Origin: Parvicella tangerina
GTDB taxonomy: Bacteria > Bacteroidota > Bacteroidia > Flavobacteriales_D > Parvicellaceae
Reading direction: 5' to 3'
Assembly: GCF_907165195.1 (NCBI RefSeq)
Contig: NZ_OU015584.1
Span: forward strand, 3,358,978 to 3,422,977
Length of the DNA stretch: 64,000 nucleotides
Part shown: in pieces, positions 43,427 through 53,110 of the stretch
Position numbering within the stretch: position 1 is the stretch's first letter
How the letters are laid out: each line of letters starts with the position of its first letter
Translations under genes and position numbers: made by a program
The notes under the pieces: model-generated
Seen by the model: the letters and a program-made list of their open reading frames with translations, nothing else
Database searches by the model: none
Told to the model about the DNA's origin: nothing

Positions 43427-43951
43427 GTGAAACGCATCATTCAAATAGCTATATTTATCTTGTTCTCCACTGGAGTAGCATGGGGACAAGGTGCTGCTGG
43501 TGGTGCGAACCTTAAGCTAAAAAGCATGTTTGTGTACAATTTCATCAAAAATGTAGAGTGGCCCTCCTCTCAAAAAAGTGGAGACTTTAATGTAACTGTT
43601 TTAGGGGATAAGGATCTGTACCAAATGATGAATAGTACGTACGCTGGGAAAGAGATTAACGGTCAAAAAATCGTCTTTTCTTATGTGGATGCTTACAGTG
43701 AAGTGGGCACAGCTCACATCTTATACATTGCCCCAAAATTCAGCTCTGACTTGGCCAAATATTCACAGAAACTGAGAAAAAACAAAACGTTAGTTGTCTC
43801 TGACAAAGGAGGCCTGCTCTATGATGGCTCTGTAATAAATTTTGTAGTTAGTAACAATAAATTACTTTTTGAAATTAGTAAATCAAATGCTGAGTTGGTC
43901 CCATTAACAATTGGACCTTCTTTGCTTAAAATGGCGACAACGGTGATCTAA
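43427..43951 (+). CDS. YfiR-family (DUF4154) periplasmic protein
   Basis: A 174-residue exported protein (signal peptide MKRIIQIAIFILFSTGVAWGQ, GTG start). The mature part reads as YfiR/DUF4154: LKSMFVYNFIKNVEWPSS near the start, FNVTVLGDKDLYQMM, HILYIAPKFSSDL and LVVSDKGGLLYDGSVINFVV, then the closing FEISKSNAEL. In Pseudomonas YfiR is a periplasmic inhibitor of the diguanylate cyclase YfiN. In Bacteroidota members sit beside other membrane signalling proteins. Here the stop overlaps the start of a TPR gene by one base, and a HAMP-SpoIIE phosphatase follows, which suggests it tunes that sensor. Confidence 0.85.
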   Translation: MKRIIQIAIFILFSTGVAWGQGAAGGANLKLKSMFVYNFIKNVEWPSSQKSGDFNVTVLGDKDLYQMMNSTYAGKEINGQKIVFSYVDAYSEVGTAHILYIAPKFSSDLAKYSQKLRKNKTLVVSDKGGLLYDGSVINFVVSNNKLLFEISKSNAELVPLTIGPSLLKMATTVI

Positions 43952-44895
43952 TGATGTGGATTAAAAACATATCGATTTTTATTCTGATGCTGACATTAAA
44001 TCTCTCGATTTTTAGTCAGGATAAGAATAAGTATTGCATCTATGATCAGGTGGCTATAGAGAAGTACGGCAATAAAGAGTTCAAGGACGCTCTAGCCTAC
44101 ATTGATACAGCTATCACAATGTGTAAAGAATTGGAGAGTGACCCTTACGTTTATCACATTAAAGGTTTTATTTGCTATGAACTCTACAAGTCAGAGGAGT
44201 TAGATGATCCGTATTCTAACTATAGAGCTCAGGCTTTTGAAGCTTTTCTTAAATCCAACGAATTAGATGAAGGCAAAGAGTTTACGAGTAAAAACACCAA
44301 AAGCCTCAGAAATATTTGTATTCGAATTCAAAAGAACATTGCGCAAAGTTTAGATACCGTAAATTATAAGGAGGCTTTGAAATTAGACAAGCTTTATCAT
44401 CAATCTGTTGAACGATCAGGTGTGAAACTTGACCTCAAAGAACACGACATTACGTTTAATAATATGATTGGAAGTATTTTCGTTGAGCTTTATGAAAACC
44501 AAAAAGGTTCGAGAGAAGACTTTGTAGATTCAGCAATTGTTTACTATGAAAAAGCATTATCAATCGATACGCTAGGGTTTGACGCGAATAAAAATTTAGG
44601 ATACCTATATCATAATCTGTCGATTGACATTATTTTGAATATGGATCCAGAAGACGACATCCTGACGATGTATGAGAATCAGGAGAAGTCGAGTGCACTT
44701 GGTCTAAAATCATTACCTTATCTCAAACGGGCACATGAGCAACAACCTAAAAACAGAGATGTTCTGTACGGATTAGCTGGTATTTACTTCATGCTTCAGG
44801 AAAAGGAAAAGAGTGATTTTTATCAGAAGTTATACGATGAACTGACGAAGGAGCAACAAGGCGATGGAATGTCTCCTCCGAACAATGATAATTAG
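43951..44895 (+). CDS. Exported TPR-repeat protein
   Basis: A 314-residue protein with a signal peptide (MMWIKNISIFILMLTLNLSIFSQ). Tetratricopeptide-like helical repeats fill the mature part: YGNKEFKDALAYIDTAITM, YRAQAFEAFLKSNELDEG, DSAIVYYEKALSIDTLGFD, SLPYLKRAHEQQPKNRDVLY. These are protein-protein scaffolds. It is translationally linked to the YfiR-like gene (1-nt overlap) and followed by a terminator hairpin. It probably bridges YfiR and a membrane partner. That role is inferred from position only. Confidence 0.8.
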   Translation: MMWIKNISIFILMLTLNLSIFSQDKNKYCIYDQVAIEKYGNKEFKDALAYIDTAITMCKELESDPYVYHIKGFICYELYKSEELDDPYSNYRAQAFEAFLKSNELDEGKEFTSKNTKSLRNICIRIQKNIAQSLDTVNYKEALKLDKLYHQSVERSGVKLDLKEHDITFNNMIGSIFVELYENQKGSREDFVDSAIVYYEKALSIDTLGFDANKNLGYLYHNLSIDIILNMDPEDDILTMYENQEKSSALGLKSLPYLKRAHEQQPKNRDVLYGLAGIYFMLQEKEKSDFYQKLYDELTKEQQGDGMSPPNNDN

Positions 44896-44956: not shown

Positions 44957-46771
44957 ATGCGATTTACAGTAGGAAGGAAAATAGGTCTCGGATTTATTGT
45001 TGTAGGGATATTGATATTCGCTGTTTTCGGCTACACGATCTCTATAGTTAATGGTGCTAAGATCACCTTAGATTCATACGGTCAATCAAACAAACAGTAC
45101 AACGAAATCGGTGAGCCAACTGTTCAGGGTCTCGAGTCACTTGAGGAAGATATTGATGACCTTTCTTTTCACGTGAATAACTGGGTATACAACACCACTA
45201 ATGACCTTAGCTCGCTTCATGCGATGAACAAAATCCTCGACACGCTGCTATACGAAGACCTGAAAGCGTTAGATGAGGTCTCGACCAAATGGGATAAAGA
45301 GGCCGACATTGAGACGTATGACGAGATAAAAAAAGACCTTGAAGTTCTTAAGGAAGATATCGATCTGAACATTCGTATGGTGTTGACTGATTTTGCCTCG
45401 AAAGCTGATGTGACTAACTTGTTCATGGCTCAAACAGCTATTGATGACATCAACCCTAAATTGGATGATATTCTCTCTAAAACACATGAGCTGAGAGAGA
45501 AGAAGGAAAGCGAATCCGCTCAGCAAAAGGAGACCATGAATGTAAAGTTCACGGAAACTTCTGATGGATTCTCTTTTCTGTTTAAACTAATCATTGTTGC
45601 CCTCTTTGTGCTTGTTGTCGGAACCATGATTATTGCCCTGTTTACCACTCGAAGTATCACGCGTCCGGTAACTCAACTAAAGGGAATTTTGATCAACCTT
45701 GGTAAAGGAATTTTCCCTAAACAAAAAGTCGATCCAAGCAATGATGAAATTGGTGAGATGTCAATTGCAATGAACCAATTAGTTGACGGTTTAAAGCGAA
45801 CTACAGATTTTGCCAATGAGGTTGGAAAAAGCAACTTTGACTATCCCTACACACCTTTGAGCAGCGAAGATGTTTTAGGACACGCACTAGTAAAAATGCG
45901 TGACGAACTTGCTGAAAACGAAAGAATATTAGAGCAAAAGGTAAAAGAACGAACAGCTGAGGTTGTTCGTCAAAAAGAAGAAATTGAGCGGCAAAGTGAA
46001 AAACTGGAGGAACTTTACAAAGATGTAACCGACAGTATTAGATATGCAAAGCGATTGCAAGACTCCATACTTCCACAGAACTCACTAATTGAAAGGTTAT
46101 TACCCGAATCTTTTGTACTCTTCAAACCGAAAGATATTGTCTCTGGAGATTTTTATTGGGTGAGTGAAACCGATGAGAAGATACTTTTCTCTGCCGTGGA
46201 TTGTACAGGCCATGGTGTTCCTGGAGCATTTATGAGTTTGATTGGAGCAAATGCACTCAATCAGATCATCAATGAAAAAGAGGACAAACCTGCACATATC
46301 CTAAATAAGTTGAACAAACTTTCATCCGAAGCTCTTAACAAGTCAGAAGAAGGAATTAAAGTACGAGATGGTATGGATTTGGCGCTATGCGCAATTTCCA
46401 AAGACATGAAATCATTAGAGTACTCTGGTGCAAACAATCCTCTTTACTTGGTTAGAGATGGTGAAATTTCCATAACTAAAGCCGATAAGTTTGCCATTGC
46501 AAGTTTCGAAGATGGAGAACACCATTACACGAATCATGAGTTCGAACTAAAAAAAGGAGACCTCGTCTATGTTTTCTCTGACGGTTATGCTGACCAGTTT
46601 GGTGGTGTTAAAGGAAAGAAATTCATGTACCGTCAGTTCAGAGAGCTACTTGTTTCCCTTAAGGACGAACCGATGCATAGGCAAAAGGAAATCCTTAACG
46701 ACAAGATTGAAGAATGGAAAGGGACTTTCGAACAGGTAGATGATATCCTCGTAATCGGTGTTCGTATTTAG
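44957..46771 (+). CDS. Membrane sensor phosphatase: HAMP plus SpoIIE-type PP2C
   Basis: A 604-residue protein. A first helix (about 8-28), a periplasmic helical sensor domain (about 30-205), a second helix (about 208-230), HAMP (about 231-285, starting TTRSITRPVTQL), a coiled coil (about 315-360) and a SpoIIE/RsbU-type PP2C phosphatase (about 375-604). Metal-binding motifs are intact: SGDFYWV near residue 396, DCTGHGVPGAFMS near 414, SDGYADQFGG near 540 and the final DDILVIGVRI. Such phosphatases act on anti-sigma-factor antagonists or other Ser/Thr phosphoproteins. No anti-sigma or antagonist gene is adjacent. A terminator hairpin ends about 14 nt upstream of the start. Confidence 0.93.
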   Translation: MRFTVGRKIGLGFIVVGILIFAVFGYTISIVNGAKITLDSYGQSNKQYNEIGEPTVQGLESLEEDIDDLSFHVNNWVYNTTNDLSSLHAMNKILDTLLYEDLKALDEVSTKWDKEADIETYDEIKKDLEVLKEDIDLNIRMVLTDFASKADVTNLFMAQTAIDDINPKLDDILSKTHELREKKESESAQQKETMNVKFTETSDGFSFLFKLIIVALFVLVVGTMIIALFTTRSITRPVTQLKGILINLGKGIFPKQKVDPSNDEIGEMSIAMNQLVDGLKRTTDFANEVGKSNFDYPYTPLSSEDVLGHALVKMRDELAENERILEQKVKERTAEVVRQKEEIERQSEKLEELYKDVTDSIRYAKRLQDSILPQNSLIERLLPESFVLFKPKDIVSGDFYWVSETDEKILFSAVDCTGHGVPGAFMSLIGANALNQIINEKEDKPAHILNKLNKLSSEALNKSEEGIKVRDGMDLALCAISKDMKSLEYSGANNPLYLVRDGEISITKADKFAIASFEDGEHHYTNHEFELKKGDLVYVFSDGYADQFGGVKGKKFMYRQFRELLVSLKDEPMHRQKEILNDKIEEWKGTFEQVDDILVIGVRI

Positions 46772-49171: not shown

Positions 49172-49207
49172 CCTGAATAAAAAATTGTTGTGACCCCAAA
49201 CAACATT

Positions 49208-52200
49208 ATGACGAAACTTGAGAGACTATCATATATAGTTCTGTTTAGCCTGATAACTACATCAGGCTTTTTCGCACAAACCATCAGATTTAATACACTC
49301 ACTATTAAAGATGGTCTCTCACAAAGCGTGATCAATTGTGTTGGCCAAGACCCTCTGGGATATATGTGGATTGGTACTCAAGATGGTCTGAACCGGTATG
49401 ATGGCATCAACTTCAGGATCCACAAACATATTGTCAATAACACGAACAGCTTAACATCGTCCTTTATCCTGACCTTCGTTTCTGATACACTCTCTGGTAA
49501 AATGTATCTCGGAACTCAAAATGGCGGTGTTAACGTTTATGATCCTGTTCATAAAAAATTTGAGAGTCCAAAAACCTTAGGGAAGATCTCCACCTCTACT
49601 ATCAATGATCTTATCCTGATTAATCAAAAACTATACATTGCCACTTCAAAGGAAGGGCTTTGGGTATGGGATGTAAAAACTGGACAAACCAAAGTTTTTG
49701 ACAAAACCAATGACTTTCCAGGGTCAAAAATTTCCAAGCTATCTAGAATTGATAATACCCTGTGGGTAGGAACAGATGGTCAGGGAGCCATCTTATTTGA
49801 TTTAGACACTGAAAAATACACGCATTTTCAGTCTGTCAACAATAAATCGTCATTGCTAAATAATAATGTATCTGCAGCTGTGCAGTACTCTCCTAACGTT
49901 GTCCTTTTGGGAACACAGTCTGGTCTTAATTTAATAGACTTGTCACTACCTATACCCAAATTCTCTGTCCTGAAGCCCAACAAAAAAGACTTCACACTCA
50001 ACTCTGTTGAAGATATTTTGAAACAGAACGACACCACTTTTTGGGTCGCAACAAGTGGGAATGGTGTATTTAAAATAAACATAGAAGGTGGTAAGCCCAA
50101 ATTTACCAACTACCTCTCAAGTGATCTGAACAATTACTCCATTCCTCACAACATCGTCAACGATATTTTTCAGGATCGTACAGGTTCAATCTGGATTGGT
50201 ACTCAGGATGGTTTAGCCTACTTTGACCCAGTAAAACAAGGGTTTAACTCCTATGCGTACGAATTTGGAAGCAAAAAGAGTCTTTTAGACAAAACGGTTT
50301 GGTCTATTCACCCTACTGACACAATTATCTACGTGGGAACCAGACAAGGGATTACAGCTATAAATCGGATAACCAATCAGTATTTTCAATACCCATTTAA
50401 AAGTAGTAATCTGAATCAGCCTAACAACAATAGTATTTACTTTATTAATATAGATCGATTTGGCAAGATATGGACCGCAACATCTAGTGGTGTTTTCTTA
50501 CTGAATGTAAACGCGGCTGACCCCAGTAAATTCAACTACCATAAAGTGAACTTCAGAGCAGAACCTGATGAATGGGACGATGATCATTGCTATTACATCA
50601 AGTTTGACGATAAAGACTATGCCTGGGTTGGTTGTAAGGAGGGATTGGCTCGTATCCACATTATAGACCTGGCCGCAGAACACTTTGTGCATGACCCCAA
50701 TAACTCATCATCCGTTACTGGAAACGATATTCGGGTTGTTTTCATTGATAGTCAGGGTAATCATTGGACGGGTTCAGCAGGTGGAGGCCTTTCTAAATTT
50801 AACCCAATTGCAATCGATGGAAAAACCACGTTAAAATTTGAACACTACCTAAACAATCCAAACAATTTAAATAGCCTAAGTAATAATACTGTTTTATCTA
50901 TTCACGAAGAACCCGAAGGCACACTGTGGATCGCAACTTACGGAGGAGGATTGAATAAATTTGACATTGACACTGAACAGTTTGATGTATTTACCGAAGA
51001 AGATGGTCTGGCGAACAACGCAACTTATGGTATAACTGGAAGCAGTCTTAAAAACACGATATGGATCAGCACCAACTTTGGGCTCTCCAGTTATAATTAT
51101 AAAACAAAAACATTTGAGAATTACACCGAGAACGATGGTCTTCTTAGCAATGAGTTTAACACTGGAGCCTATTTTGAAGCTGAGAATGGAGAGCTGTTTT
51201 TTGGAGGGATTAATGGATTCAACTCCTTCTTTCCTGAGGACATAAAACCCAACACCGTTGCACCTGAAGTAGTTATCACTGACATTCTTATCTATAATCG
51301 TCCCATAGAACAAGAAGTCGAGGGAATTGGAGCCATCTCTTTTCTCGATGAATTGGAACTAGGCTATGAACAGAATAACCTTACATTCAAATTTGCTGCT
51401 TTACACTACACCTTTCCAAAAGGAAATAAATACAAAGTATTAATGGAAGGGGTGGATAATGAAGAAATACTCATAAACGACCTTCAACAAATTAACTACT
51501 CCAATTTATCTCCAGGTGTTTACACCTTTAAGGTTTGGGCGAGTAATAGTGACGGGATATGGAGTAAAGAGCCTAAAACGCTAATCATCAGAATAAGTGC
51601 GCCTTACTGGAGCACCTGGTGGTTCATCACCGTTTGCGTGGGTGTTTTAGCCTTGATTATTTACCTATTCTACCTATGGAGAATCAGGAGCATGAAGTCC
51701 CAAAAGGAGCGATTAGCCTTTCTGGTTGAAAAGCGTACTAAAACAATTACCCAACAAAAAGAACAACTTGAAAACCATCAAAAGGAACTCGAGGTTCAGA
51801 AAGAGAAATCAGACAATCTTTTACTTAATATCCTACCAGCAGAAACGGTTGAAGAGCTCAAAAACAAAGGAAAAACGAAACCTCGTTATTACCGAATGGT
51901 CACTGTTCTATTTACAGATATCAAAGGCTTCACGAAGATCGCTGAAGCCTTCAAACCAACGGAGTTAGTAAAAAGGCTGGATAATCTATTTCGGGAAATT
52001 GATAAGATCATTGAAAAGCATCAAATCGAAAAGATTAAAACCATTGGAGATGCTTACATGGCTGCAGGTGGTGTACCATTAAGAGACAAAGAAAACCCTA
52101 TTCACTGTGTACTTGCCGCCTTAGAGATTCAGCGGTTTATGGAAAAAGAAGCTAAAAGGTATAAAGACGAGGAACCCTGGCAATTGAGAATCGGTCTTCA

Positions 52201-53110
52201 TACTGGTGATGTAATTGCTGGTGTGATTGGGACTAAACGTATTGCCTACGACATTTGGGGGAACACGGTGAATGTTGCCAACAGAATGGAAATGGCGAGT
52301 GAACCAGGTAAAGTGAATATTTCAGGTCGAACCTTTGAATATATTAAACCTTATTTTGACTGTACCTATAGAGGAAAGGTTCCAGCCAAAAACAAGGGAG
52401 AAATTGACATGTACTACGTGGAGGGAATCAAACCTCATCTGTCAAAAGGGGGTAGAGGGACAGTTCCCAACAAAAAATTCACGGATTACGTTCACTTACA
52501 TATTTACAGTAGCATCAACTACCGTAAAGCCGAACGACACATCATGAAGATTCTTAAAGCAGAACTCTCTCCTAACCTTCATTATCACGGGATTCATCAT
52601 ACTTATGATGTTGTAGACGCAGTGGAACGATTGGCAATCATGGAAGGCGTTCTTGATGAAGATATTTTTGTGTTGAAATCTGCTGCTACTTATCATGACG
52701 CAGGCTTTGTGGAACAATATGACAAGAACGAACCTATTGGAGCGAGAATGGCCTCAGAGATCTTACCGCTTTATGGTTACACCGAGGAACAAGTTAGTTT
52801 GGTGCATCGCCTAATCTATGCCACTATCGTACCTCACAACCCGCAAACTAAGTTAGAAGAGATCATTTGTGACGCAGATCTTGACTATTTAGGACGAGAT
52901 GACTTCCACCAAATTGCAGATACACTAAGGCGTGAGCTTCGAGACCACGGAAAAATCAATAGTGATAGAATGTGGGATGAAATTCAGATTAAATTTTTGG
53001 AGCAACACCGGTACTTTACGAAATCTGCTATCAAGCTTCGACAAGAGAAAAAACTAAAACATATTGAAGAAATAAAGCAGCGTCTTAAAGAAAACAACTA
53101 CAAAGATTAA
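49208..53110 (+). CDS. Propeller sensor - membrane helix - class III nucleotide cyclase - HD phosphohydrolase fusion
   Basis: About 1300 residues from the ATG at 49208 (a GTG at 49190 is also in frame). A signal peptide (ending GFFAQ) is followed by regulator-propeller repeats (IWIGTQDGLAYFDP type, about 30-720), a Y_Y_Y domain (about 725-798), one membrane helix (about 801-825), a coiled coil, a class III cyclase (about 890-1065) and an HD domain (about 1095-1240). Cyclase residues are complete: metal ligands Asp904 and Asp948, adenine-selecting Lys944 and Asp1015, and catalytic Asn1022 and Arg1026, so cAMP is the expected product. The HD domain has HYHGIHHTYDVV (1125-1136), His1163-Asp1164, His1200 and Asp1222/Asp1224, resembling class I phosphodiesterases. 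It may both make and degrade cAMP. Confidence 0.9.
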   Translation: MTKLERLSYIVLFSLITTSGFFAQTIRFNTLTIKDGLSQSVINCVGQDPLGYMWIGTQDGLNRYDGINFRIHKHIVNNTNSLTSSFILTFVSDTLSGKMYLGTQNGGVNVYDPVHKKFESPKTLGKISTSTINDLILINQKLYIATSKEGLWVWDVKTGQTKVFDKTNDFPGSKISKLSRIDNTLWVGTDGQGAILFDLDTEKYTHFQSVNNKSSLLNNNVSAAVQYSPNVVLLGTQSGLNLIDLSLPIPKFSVLKPNKKDFTLNSVEDILKQNDTTFWVATSGNGVFKINIEGGKPKFTNYLSSDLNNYSIPHNIVNDIFQDRTGSIWIGTQDGLAYFDPVKQGFNSYAYEFGSKKSLLDKTVWSIHPTDTIIYVGTRQGITAINRITNQYFQYPFKSSNLNQPNNNSIYFINIDRFGKIWTATSSGVFLLNVNAADPSKFNYHKVNFRAEPDEWDDDHCYYIKFDDKDYAWVGCKEGLARIHIIDLAAEHFVHDPNNSSSVTGNDIRVVFIDSQGNHWTGSAGGGLSKFNPIAIDGKTTLKFEHYLNNPNNLNSLSNNTVLSIHEEPEGTLWIATYGGGLNKFDIDTEQFDVFTEEDGLANNATYGITGSSLKNTIWISTNFGLSSYNYKTKTFENYTENDGLLSNEFNTGAYFEAENGELFFGGINGFNSFFPEDIKPNTVAPEVVITDILIYNRPIEQEVEGIGAISFLDELELGYEQNNLTFKFAALHYTFPKGNKYKVLMEGVDNEEILINDLQQINYSNLSPGVYTFKVWASNSDGIWSKEPKTLIIRISAPYWSTWWFITVCVGVLALIIYLFYLWRIRSMKSQKERLAFLVEKRTKTITQQKEQLENHQKELEVQKEKSDNLLLNILPAETVEELKNKGKTKPRYYRMVTVLFTDIKGFTKIAEAFKPTELVKRLDNLFREIDKIIEKHQIEKIKTIGDAYMAAGGVPLRDKENPIHCVLAALEIQRFMEKEAKRYKDEEPWQLRIGLHTGDVIAGVIGTKRIAYDIWGNTVNVANRMEMASEPGKVNISGRTFEYIKPYFDCTYRGKVPAKNKGEIDMYYVEGIKPHLSKGGRGTVPNKKFTDYVHLHIYSSINYRKAERHIMKILKAELSPNLHYHGIHHTYDVVDAVERLAIMEGVLDEDIFVLKSAATYHDAGFVEQYDKNEPIGARMASEILPLYGYTEEQVSLVHRLIYATIVPHNPQTKLEEIICDADLDYLGRDDFHQIADTLRRELRDHGKINSDRMWDEIQIKFLEQHRYFTKSAIKLRQEKKLKHIEEIKQRLKENNYKD

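Follow-up and report, generated by a model that had tools for sequence, protein, structure and literature searches.

Domain organization of the gene

We analyzed a 64,000-nucleotide stretch of the Parvicella tangerina genome (contig NZ_OU015584.1, positions 3,358,978 to 3,422,977), referred to here as the window, and focused on a gene for a predicted membrane receptor that joins a periplasmic sensor, a class III adenylate cyclase, and a C-terminal HD domain. A sequence-only reading had proposed that this protein both makes and hydrolyzes cyclic AMP (cAMP). The start codon is the ATG at 49208, with an in-frame GTG also present at 49190 in the open reading frame (ORF) of the window. The features of the gene are listed below in window coordinates.

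49208..53110, + strand: gene for the propeller, Y_Y_Y, transmembrane (TM), adenylate cyclase, and HD protein, 1300 amino acids
49208..49279, + strand: signal-peptide-like N-terminus, residues 1-24, judged from the sequence MTKLERLSYIVLFSLITTSGFFAQ
49280..51367, + strand: Reg_prop two-component-regulator-type beta-propeller, predicted periplasmic, about residues 25-720 (Pfam E 2.8e-18)
51407..51595, + strand: Y_Y_Y domain, residues 734-796 (Pfam E 6.6e-13)
51620..51679, + strand: single TM helix, about residues 805-824 (hydropathy, one strong segment)
51887..52423, + strand: class III adenylate cyclase domain, residues 894-1072 (Guanylate_cyc, PF00211, E 3.6e-53; structure match)
52463..53107, + strand: C-terminal HD domain, residues 1086-1300 (Pfam, alignment, AlphaFold model, and Foldseek)

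The Pfam matches to Reg_prop, Y_Y_Y, Guanylate_cyc, and HD all exceed the cut-off, and the domain order that had been read from the sequence (propeller, Y_Y_Y, TM helix, cyclase, HD) was borne out by Pfam and hydropathy. The TM helix is followed by a coiled-coil or signaling helix extending to about residue 885, with a weak HNOBA match at residues 844-884. The Pfam HD match (PF01966) spans residues 1129-1224 (E 1.8e-5, 25.4 bits vs a cut-off of 22), and by this test the domain is an HD-superfamily protein.

Conservation of the cyclase and HD active sites

The cyclase half scored 180 bits against PF00211 (cut-off 21.9) and matched solved adenylyl cyclases in Foldseek. All 6 key residues named beforehand, Asp904, Lys944, Asp948, Asp1015, Asn1022, and Arg1026, were found in place; they include the 2 metal Asp (D904 and D948), the transition-state Asn1022 and Arg1026, and an ATP-type adenine-specificity pair of Lys plus Asp/Thr (K944 and D1015). 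Across 69 cyclase-HD fusions, K944, D948, and N1022 were each present in 69/69, D904 in 66/69, D1015 in 64/69, and R1026 in 63/69. By profile and residue tests the domain is thus a class III nucleotidyl cyclase, with cAMP as its probable product. PADLOC PycC matches to this cyclase do not separate it from other class III cyclases.

In the HD domain, HYHGIHHTYDVV begins at residue 1125, and the metal His within it is His1131. The motif residues are Y1126-H1127-G-I-H1130-H1131-T-Y-D-V, H1163-D1164, N1174, T1206, and D1222/D1224, with E1243, W1256, Q1260-x-x-F1263, and H1267 further toward the C-terminus. Conservation in the same 69 fusions was near complete at H1127, H1131, D1164, and D1222 (69/69 each) and at H1163 and D1224 (68/69 each), and T1206, P1209, P1212, E1243, W1256, H1267, and K1282 were also conserved. 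The metal site had been drawn from His1163, Asp1164, His1200, and Asp1222; these residues do occupy the positions given, but His1200 is variable among the fusions, with K in 26 sequences and V in 9 besides other residues, and was therefore dropped from the ligand set. A better set consists of His1131, His1163, Asp1164, and Asp1222/1224. Profile alignments place the C-terminal Asp of phosphodiesterases (PDEs) on Asp1224 and not on Asp1222, both being practically invariant.

Since near-invariant residues occur in both halves, the HD domain is no dead passenger, and by this pattern of conservation the cyclase and HD halves are both under constraint. HD-family domains without catalytic activity are known from other proteins, which would suit a functional cyclase carrying the HD domain solely as a structural or dimerization module; yet the catalytic-type residues are more strictly kept than the remainder of the domain, and we judge such a module highly improbable.

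The segment YHGIHHTYDVV retains both His and the Asp-Val of the class I PDE motif H-N-x-x-H-A-x-D-V; its N is replaced by G and its A by T. The GYP motif is absent from the HD domain and there is no HD-GYP Pfam match; identity as an HD-GYP phosphodiesterase of cyclic di-GMP (c-di-GMP) was ruled out on both motif and profile.

Fold and relation to phosphodiesterases

The AlphaFold model of the HD domain (predicted local distance difference test, pLDDT, 96.9; predicted template modeling score, pTM, 0.92) was compared with PDB structures. Class I PDEs (PDE2/4/5) made up 38 of the top 50 Foldseek matches, ranking after bacterial HD hydrolases, with TM-scores by query length of up to 0.69, where the HD hydrolases reached 0.64; by PDE length, the TM-scores were 0.39-0.54. 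A profile-profile comparison with PDE4D/5A/9A gave an E of 1.9e-6 and a probability of 89.5% over a region that begins at the first motif and ends at the final Asp. With PDE4D alone, hhalign was confident for the first motif only, and the result improved with the 3 PDEs, of whose sequences 2 were identical to their PDB chains and 1 was identical except for the first residue. A PDEase_I scan over 396 Bacteroidota genomes, an even sample of the phylum, yielded 7 matches, including 5 clear members and 1 distant member of this HD family, and no bona fide class I PDE. A PDB search with the HD sequence alone returned nothing useful, and the HD profile matched the PDB chains of 2pq7 (2.6e-7), YedJ (1.5e-4), and, weakly, class I PDEB1 (0.044). 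The Escherichia coli YedJ gene (NC_000913.3, L209:2385-3080), annotated as a putative HD phosphohydrolase, is among the nearest solved relatives by profile.

Class I PDEs clamp the base by an invariant Gln together with a Phe located three positions further on. In the HD model, the helix that follows the metal-Asp segment carries Q1260-x-x-F1263, and 2 profile alignments, each of low confidence at this place, put these residues on the PDE Gln and Phe. Among cyclase-linked HD domains, Q1260 was kept in 85/91 and F1263 in 89/91, and position 1260 is Asn, Thr, or Ser in 27/29 PycTM-linked HD domains. The Gln-x-x-Phe may mark a base pocket, and we treat it as a lead only. Unfused cyclases beside Gln-type HD domains had Lys plus Asp/Thr wherever the site was complete, and 2 of the 3 cyclases beside non-Gln HD domains were without this pair; this correspondence between Gln-type HD domains and cyclase specificity is suggestive, with too few cases. 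Taken together, modeling and weak profile alignment support a fold resembling that of PDEs, in which His/His-Asp/Asp would be the metal residues and Gln-x-x-Phe would lie where class I PDEs clamp the base.

Recurrence of the fusion

The HD alignment was scanned over one genome per prokaryotic species, giving 80 loci. In 46 loci the HD domain ends a propeller-Y_Y_Y-cyclase protein, mostly of about 1300 amino acids, 19 further ORFs carry cyclase-HD behind other N-termini, and 16 HD domains were free-standing, truncated, or otherwise fused. Cyclase fusions are over-represented among the 80 loci because these loci are the ones most closely related to the window HD domain. The sources named were Flavobacteriales/Crocinitomicaceae metagenome-assembled genomes (MAGs), Bacteroidales (among them Labilibaculum and Perlabentimonas), and 1 Chlorobiota MAG, and a single relative was found in viral contigs. 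In the 396-genome sample, the HD family was present in 131 genomes and cyclase-HD fusions were few (2 of this genome, plus G041 and G150). This genome has 2 class III cyclases, each fused to an HD domain.

A quick HD tree separated a PycTM-side clade of 61 rows from a cyclase-side clade of 111 rows. The cyclase-fused label required 9 changes on this tree, at least 4 of them forced by well-supported branches, and fusion or its loss therefore happened several times. Judged from this recurrence, the propeller-cyclase-HD layout is no accident.

The second cyclase-HD protein of the genome (G000:C1:2050314-2051507; L040:6312-7691) has 460 amino acids and no TM sensor was seen in it; its cyclase half has a far lower score and is seemingly divergent at some catalytic positions. 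Another locus (L038:5166-10760) encodes an 1865-amino-acid chain of protein kinase-like, AAA, GAF, cyclase, and HD domains.

Linkage of the HD family to cyclases and PycTM

We compared the positions of 57 unfused HD loci with those of the class III cyclases of the same genomes, taking random placement as the expectation. An HD gene lay within 3 kb or less of a class III cyclase in 15/57 loci vs 0.26 expected, and 0 of 200,000 simulations gave more than 5. The 15 cases are spread over about nine families, though some of the cases are closely related to each other, and 2 of the 15 cyclases, too weak for the listed table, were added by direct reading of the neighborhood.

The same HD family is also fused to PycTM, a Pycsar effector domain (PF18967 E 4e-30), in 27 proteins of the set, and adjoins a PycTM gene in 3 loci (L044, L057, and L070). 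These associations link the HD family to cyclic nucleotides, and in the HD-PycTM proteins the domain could be a cyclic-nucleotide sensor or the off-switch of a Pycsar-like system. PycTM was not found in the genome of the window protein, where PycTIR was not searched.

HD-PycTM proteins of about 400 amino acids are numerous in Bacteroidota (L024:1492-2730, L021, L029, L030, L032, and L176-L195). In one locus (L070:5527-8855), genes for HD, PycTM, and a 653-amino-acid cyclase stand in one row, the cyclase being without the usual adenylate-specificity Lys. A YitT/DUF2179 membrane protein is fused to or paired with HD in 7 loci (L039, L045, L047, L051, L053, L072, and L073), where a gene for a cyclase of about 346 amino acids is adjacent, mostly preceded by a response-regulator-like gene. 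The HD domain also ends TPR proteins of about 860-880 amino acids (L036:1887-4463, L037:5102-7741, and L171). In their middle part these proteins are similar to the FlgO/TolB-TPR tail found in some cyclases, but the cyclase itself is absent; an adjacent cyclase gene was present in L037 and L171.

Weighing of the phosphodiesterase reading

We consider it rather probable that the protein combines a sensor-controlled adenylate cyclase and a class I-like cAMP phosphodiesterase in one receptor. The domain order, the conserved active sites in both halves, and the recurrent HD-cyclase linkage are seen directly in the sequences; the two-enzyme proposal is favored by the fusions and adjacency, the conserved sites, the PDE-like structure, and the PDEase_I matches, and it loses its His1200 ligand.

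Several observations weigh against a phosphodiesterase. PDEase_I (PF00233) had no match to the window protein at E up to 1, and the scores of HD-family members reached at best 22-25 bits vs a cut-off of 24.8, nearly all lying below it; membership in the class I PDEs was therefore rejected, and under the favored reading the HD domain would work like a class I PDE by analogy without being a member of the class. The HxxxH-type motif occurs also in YedJ and 2pq7, and the alignment of Gln and Phe is of low confidence at that place, with YedJ too having Gln there. The split between Gln and Asn/Ser/Thr at position 1260 follows two deep clades, making it essentially one historical change and not repeated evidence, and it was discarded as independent evidence of specificity. 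The best Foldseek matches were the bacterial HD hydrolases 2pq7 (E 4e-4) and YpgQ (E 1e-3), followed by similar HD hydrolases, with the PDEs at an E of about 0.007. Finally, position 1174, the conserved position that follows the His-Asp pair, is His in the wider HD family and Asn in 58/69 fusions, the window protein included, which might weaken a second metal site.

The structural matches bear on another possibility, in which the HD domain would be a nucleotide phosphohydrolase with a non-cyclic substrate, either a nucleoside triphosphate pyrophosphohydrolase of the YpgQ type or an enzyme of some other kind. One YpgQ entry contains ADP, and the HD family has a clear YedJ profile match (E 6.6e-9); such an enzyme leaves unexplained both the tie to class III cyclases and PycTM and the likeness to class I PDEs, and we regard it as unlikely. 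The Asn at position 1174 would also fit an HD domain that binds a cyclic nucleotide without efficient turnover, serving the cyclase as a feedback sensor and PycTM, in the other branch, as a ligand-sensing input; to PycTM it is directly fused where a signal-sensing input domain is expected. However, His1127, His1131, His1163, Asp1164, Asp1222, and Asp1224 are near-invariant in all branches, a degree of conservation that pure binding does not call for, and cyclase-HD is mostly a direct fusion without an effector; this role seems to us rather unlikely.

Under the favored reading of a cyclase paired with a phosphodiesterase, the periplasmic propeller and Y_Y_Y sensor would control the cytoplasmic class III adenylate cyclase across a single-pass membrane receptor, and the HD domain would hydrolyze, as a class I-like cyclic-mononucleotide phosphodiesterase, the cAMP made beside it. 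The local cAMP level would then be both raised and lowered by one receptor, much as GGDEF-EAL proteins handle c-di-GMP, with the propeller setting the balance between synthesis and removal. Here cAMP as product and as substrate, the enzymatic activities, the ligand sensed, and the direction of control, including whether a signal would favor one activity over the other, are inferred. A wider proposal, which we hold tentatively and rate a little short of probable, is that the HD family comprises undescribed bacterial class I-like cyclic-mononucleotide phosphodiesterases of Bacteroidota, in which the Gln1260 branch would be a cAMP off-switch paired with adenylate cyclases, often in one polypeptide, and the Asn/Ser/Thr branch, paired with PycTM, a sensor or off-switch of cyclic-pyrimidine defense.

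Comparison with known systems

The statement that no characterized protein has this exact layout agrees with our findings, the described fusion of adenylyl cyclase and PDE being CAPE (COMBINED AC with PDE) of liverworts and other streptophytes (PMC8115329). Like the window protein, CAPE carries a class III adenylyl cyclase and a cAMP phosphodiesterase (here a candidate) in one polypeptide, but it is eukaryotic and begins with a true class I PDE, its cyclase being C-terminal (PMC8115329), whereas the window protein is bacterial and runs from propeller to cyclase to a shorter HD domain. The HD domain resembles class I PDEs (PDEase_I) in the HD-type metal site, the YHxxxH motif, the fold match to PDE2/4/5, and the tentatively aligned Gln-x-x-Phe, but it has about 215 amino acids vs about 320, falls below the PDEase_I cut-off, and has a short loop where class I PDEs have a long segment between the last helices. 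With YpgQ/YedJ-type HD hydrolases it shares fold and profile similarity (2pq7, YpgQ, and YedJ).

The functional analogy to GGDEF-EAL and GGDEF-HD-GYP proteins lies in making and degrading one second messenger in one receptor; those proteins use c-di-GMP and another cyclase family, unlike the window protein, whose HD domain is not of the GYP type. The propeller and Y_Y_Y periplasmic sensor with a single TM helix resembles that of the hybrid two-component systems of Bacteroidota, but the output is cyclase-HD, with no histidine kinase, receiver, or HTH in the Pfam scan of the protein. Pycsar PycTM effectors are related through the HD family fused to PycTM in many Bacteroidota proteins, unlike the window protein and its genome, which are without PycTM. 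A 2016 study of nucleotide cyclase-like proteins described phosphohydrolase domains (PF01966) fused to cyclases and a neighboring pair, HSW_3800/HSW_3799 (PMC4886424). That association likewise pairs a phosphohydrolase domain with a cyclase, but concerns different, divergent cyclase-like proteins, whose role was given only as "nucleic acid metabolism, signal transduction", with no phosphodiesterase proposal (PMC4886424). Within the open-access literature, to which the search was limited, no description of a bacterial HD-type cAMP phosphodiesterase was found.

Bacteroidota carry class III cyclases, and if the favored reading holds, the HD family would be a candidate cAMP phosphodiesterase family for them, and bacteria would have built one-protein receptors that make and break cAMP, like the GGDEF-EAL proteins of c-di-GMP. 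In evolution, the family might then also lie between the HD hydrolases of bacteria and the class I PDEs of eukaryotes, and it would point to a ligand that could be tested on the HD domain of PycTM proteins.

Upstream gene cluster and candidate receptors

Three genes upstream in the window belong to a conserved cluster.

43427..43951, + strand: YfiR/HmsC-like (DUF4154) gene (E 5.6e-31)
43951..44895, + strand: TPR protein gene
44957..46771, + strand: HAMP-SpoIIE (PP2C-type) phosphatase gene

The order YfiR/DUF4154, TPR, HAMP-SpoIIE, and then cyclase-HD was found in 5 other loci (L096, L099, L102, L124, and L156), and the HAMP-SpoIIE gene lies immediately upstream of cyclase-HD in orthologues with the cluster. 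In L148, a free-standing HD gene takes the place of the cyclase-HD gene after the same cluster. In the window, an SPFH/flotillin gene and a gene that we take to be NfeD-like, which has no Pfam match, lie between the cluster and the cyclase-HD gene. The genome also encodes 6 cNMP_binding proteins, which are candidate receptors.

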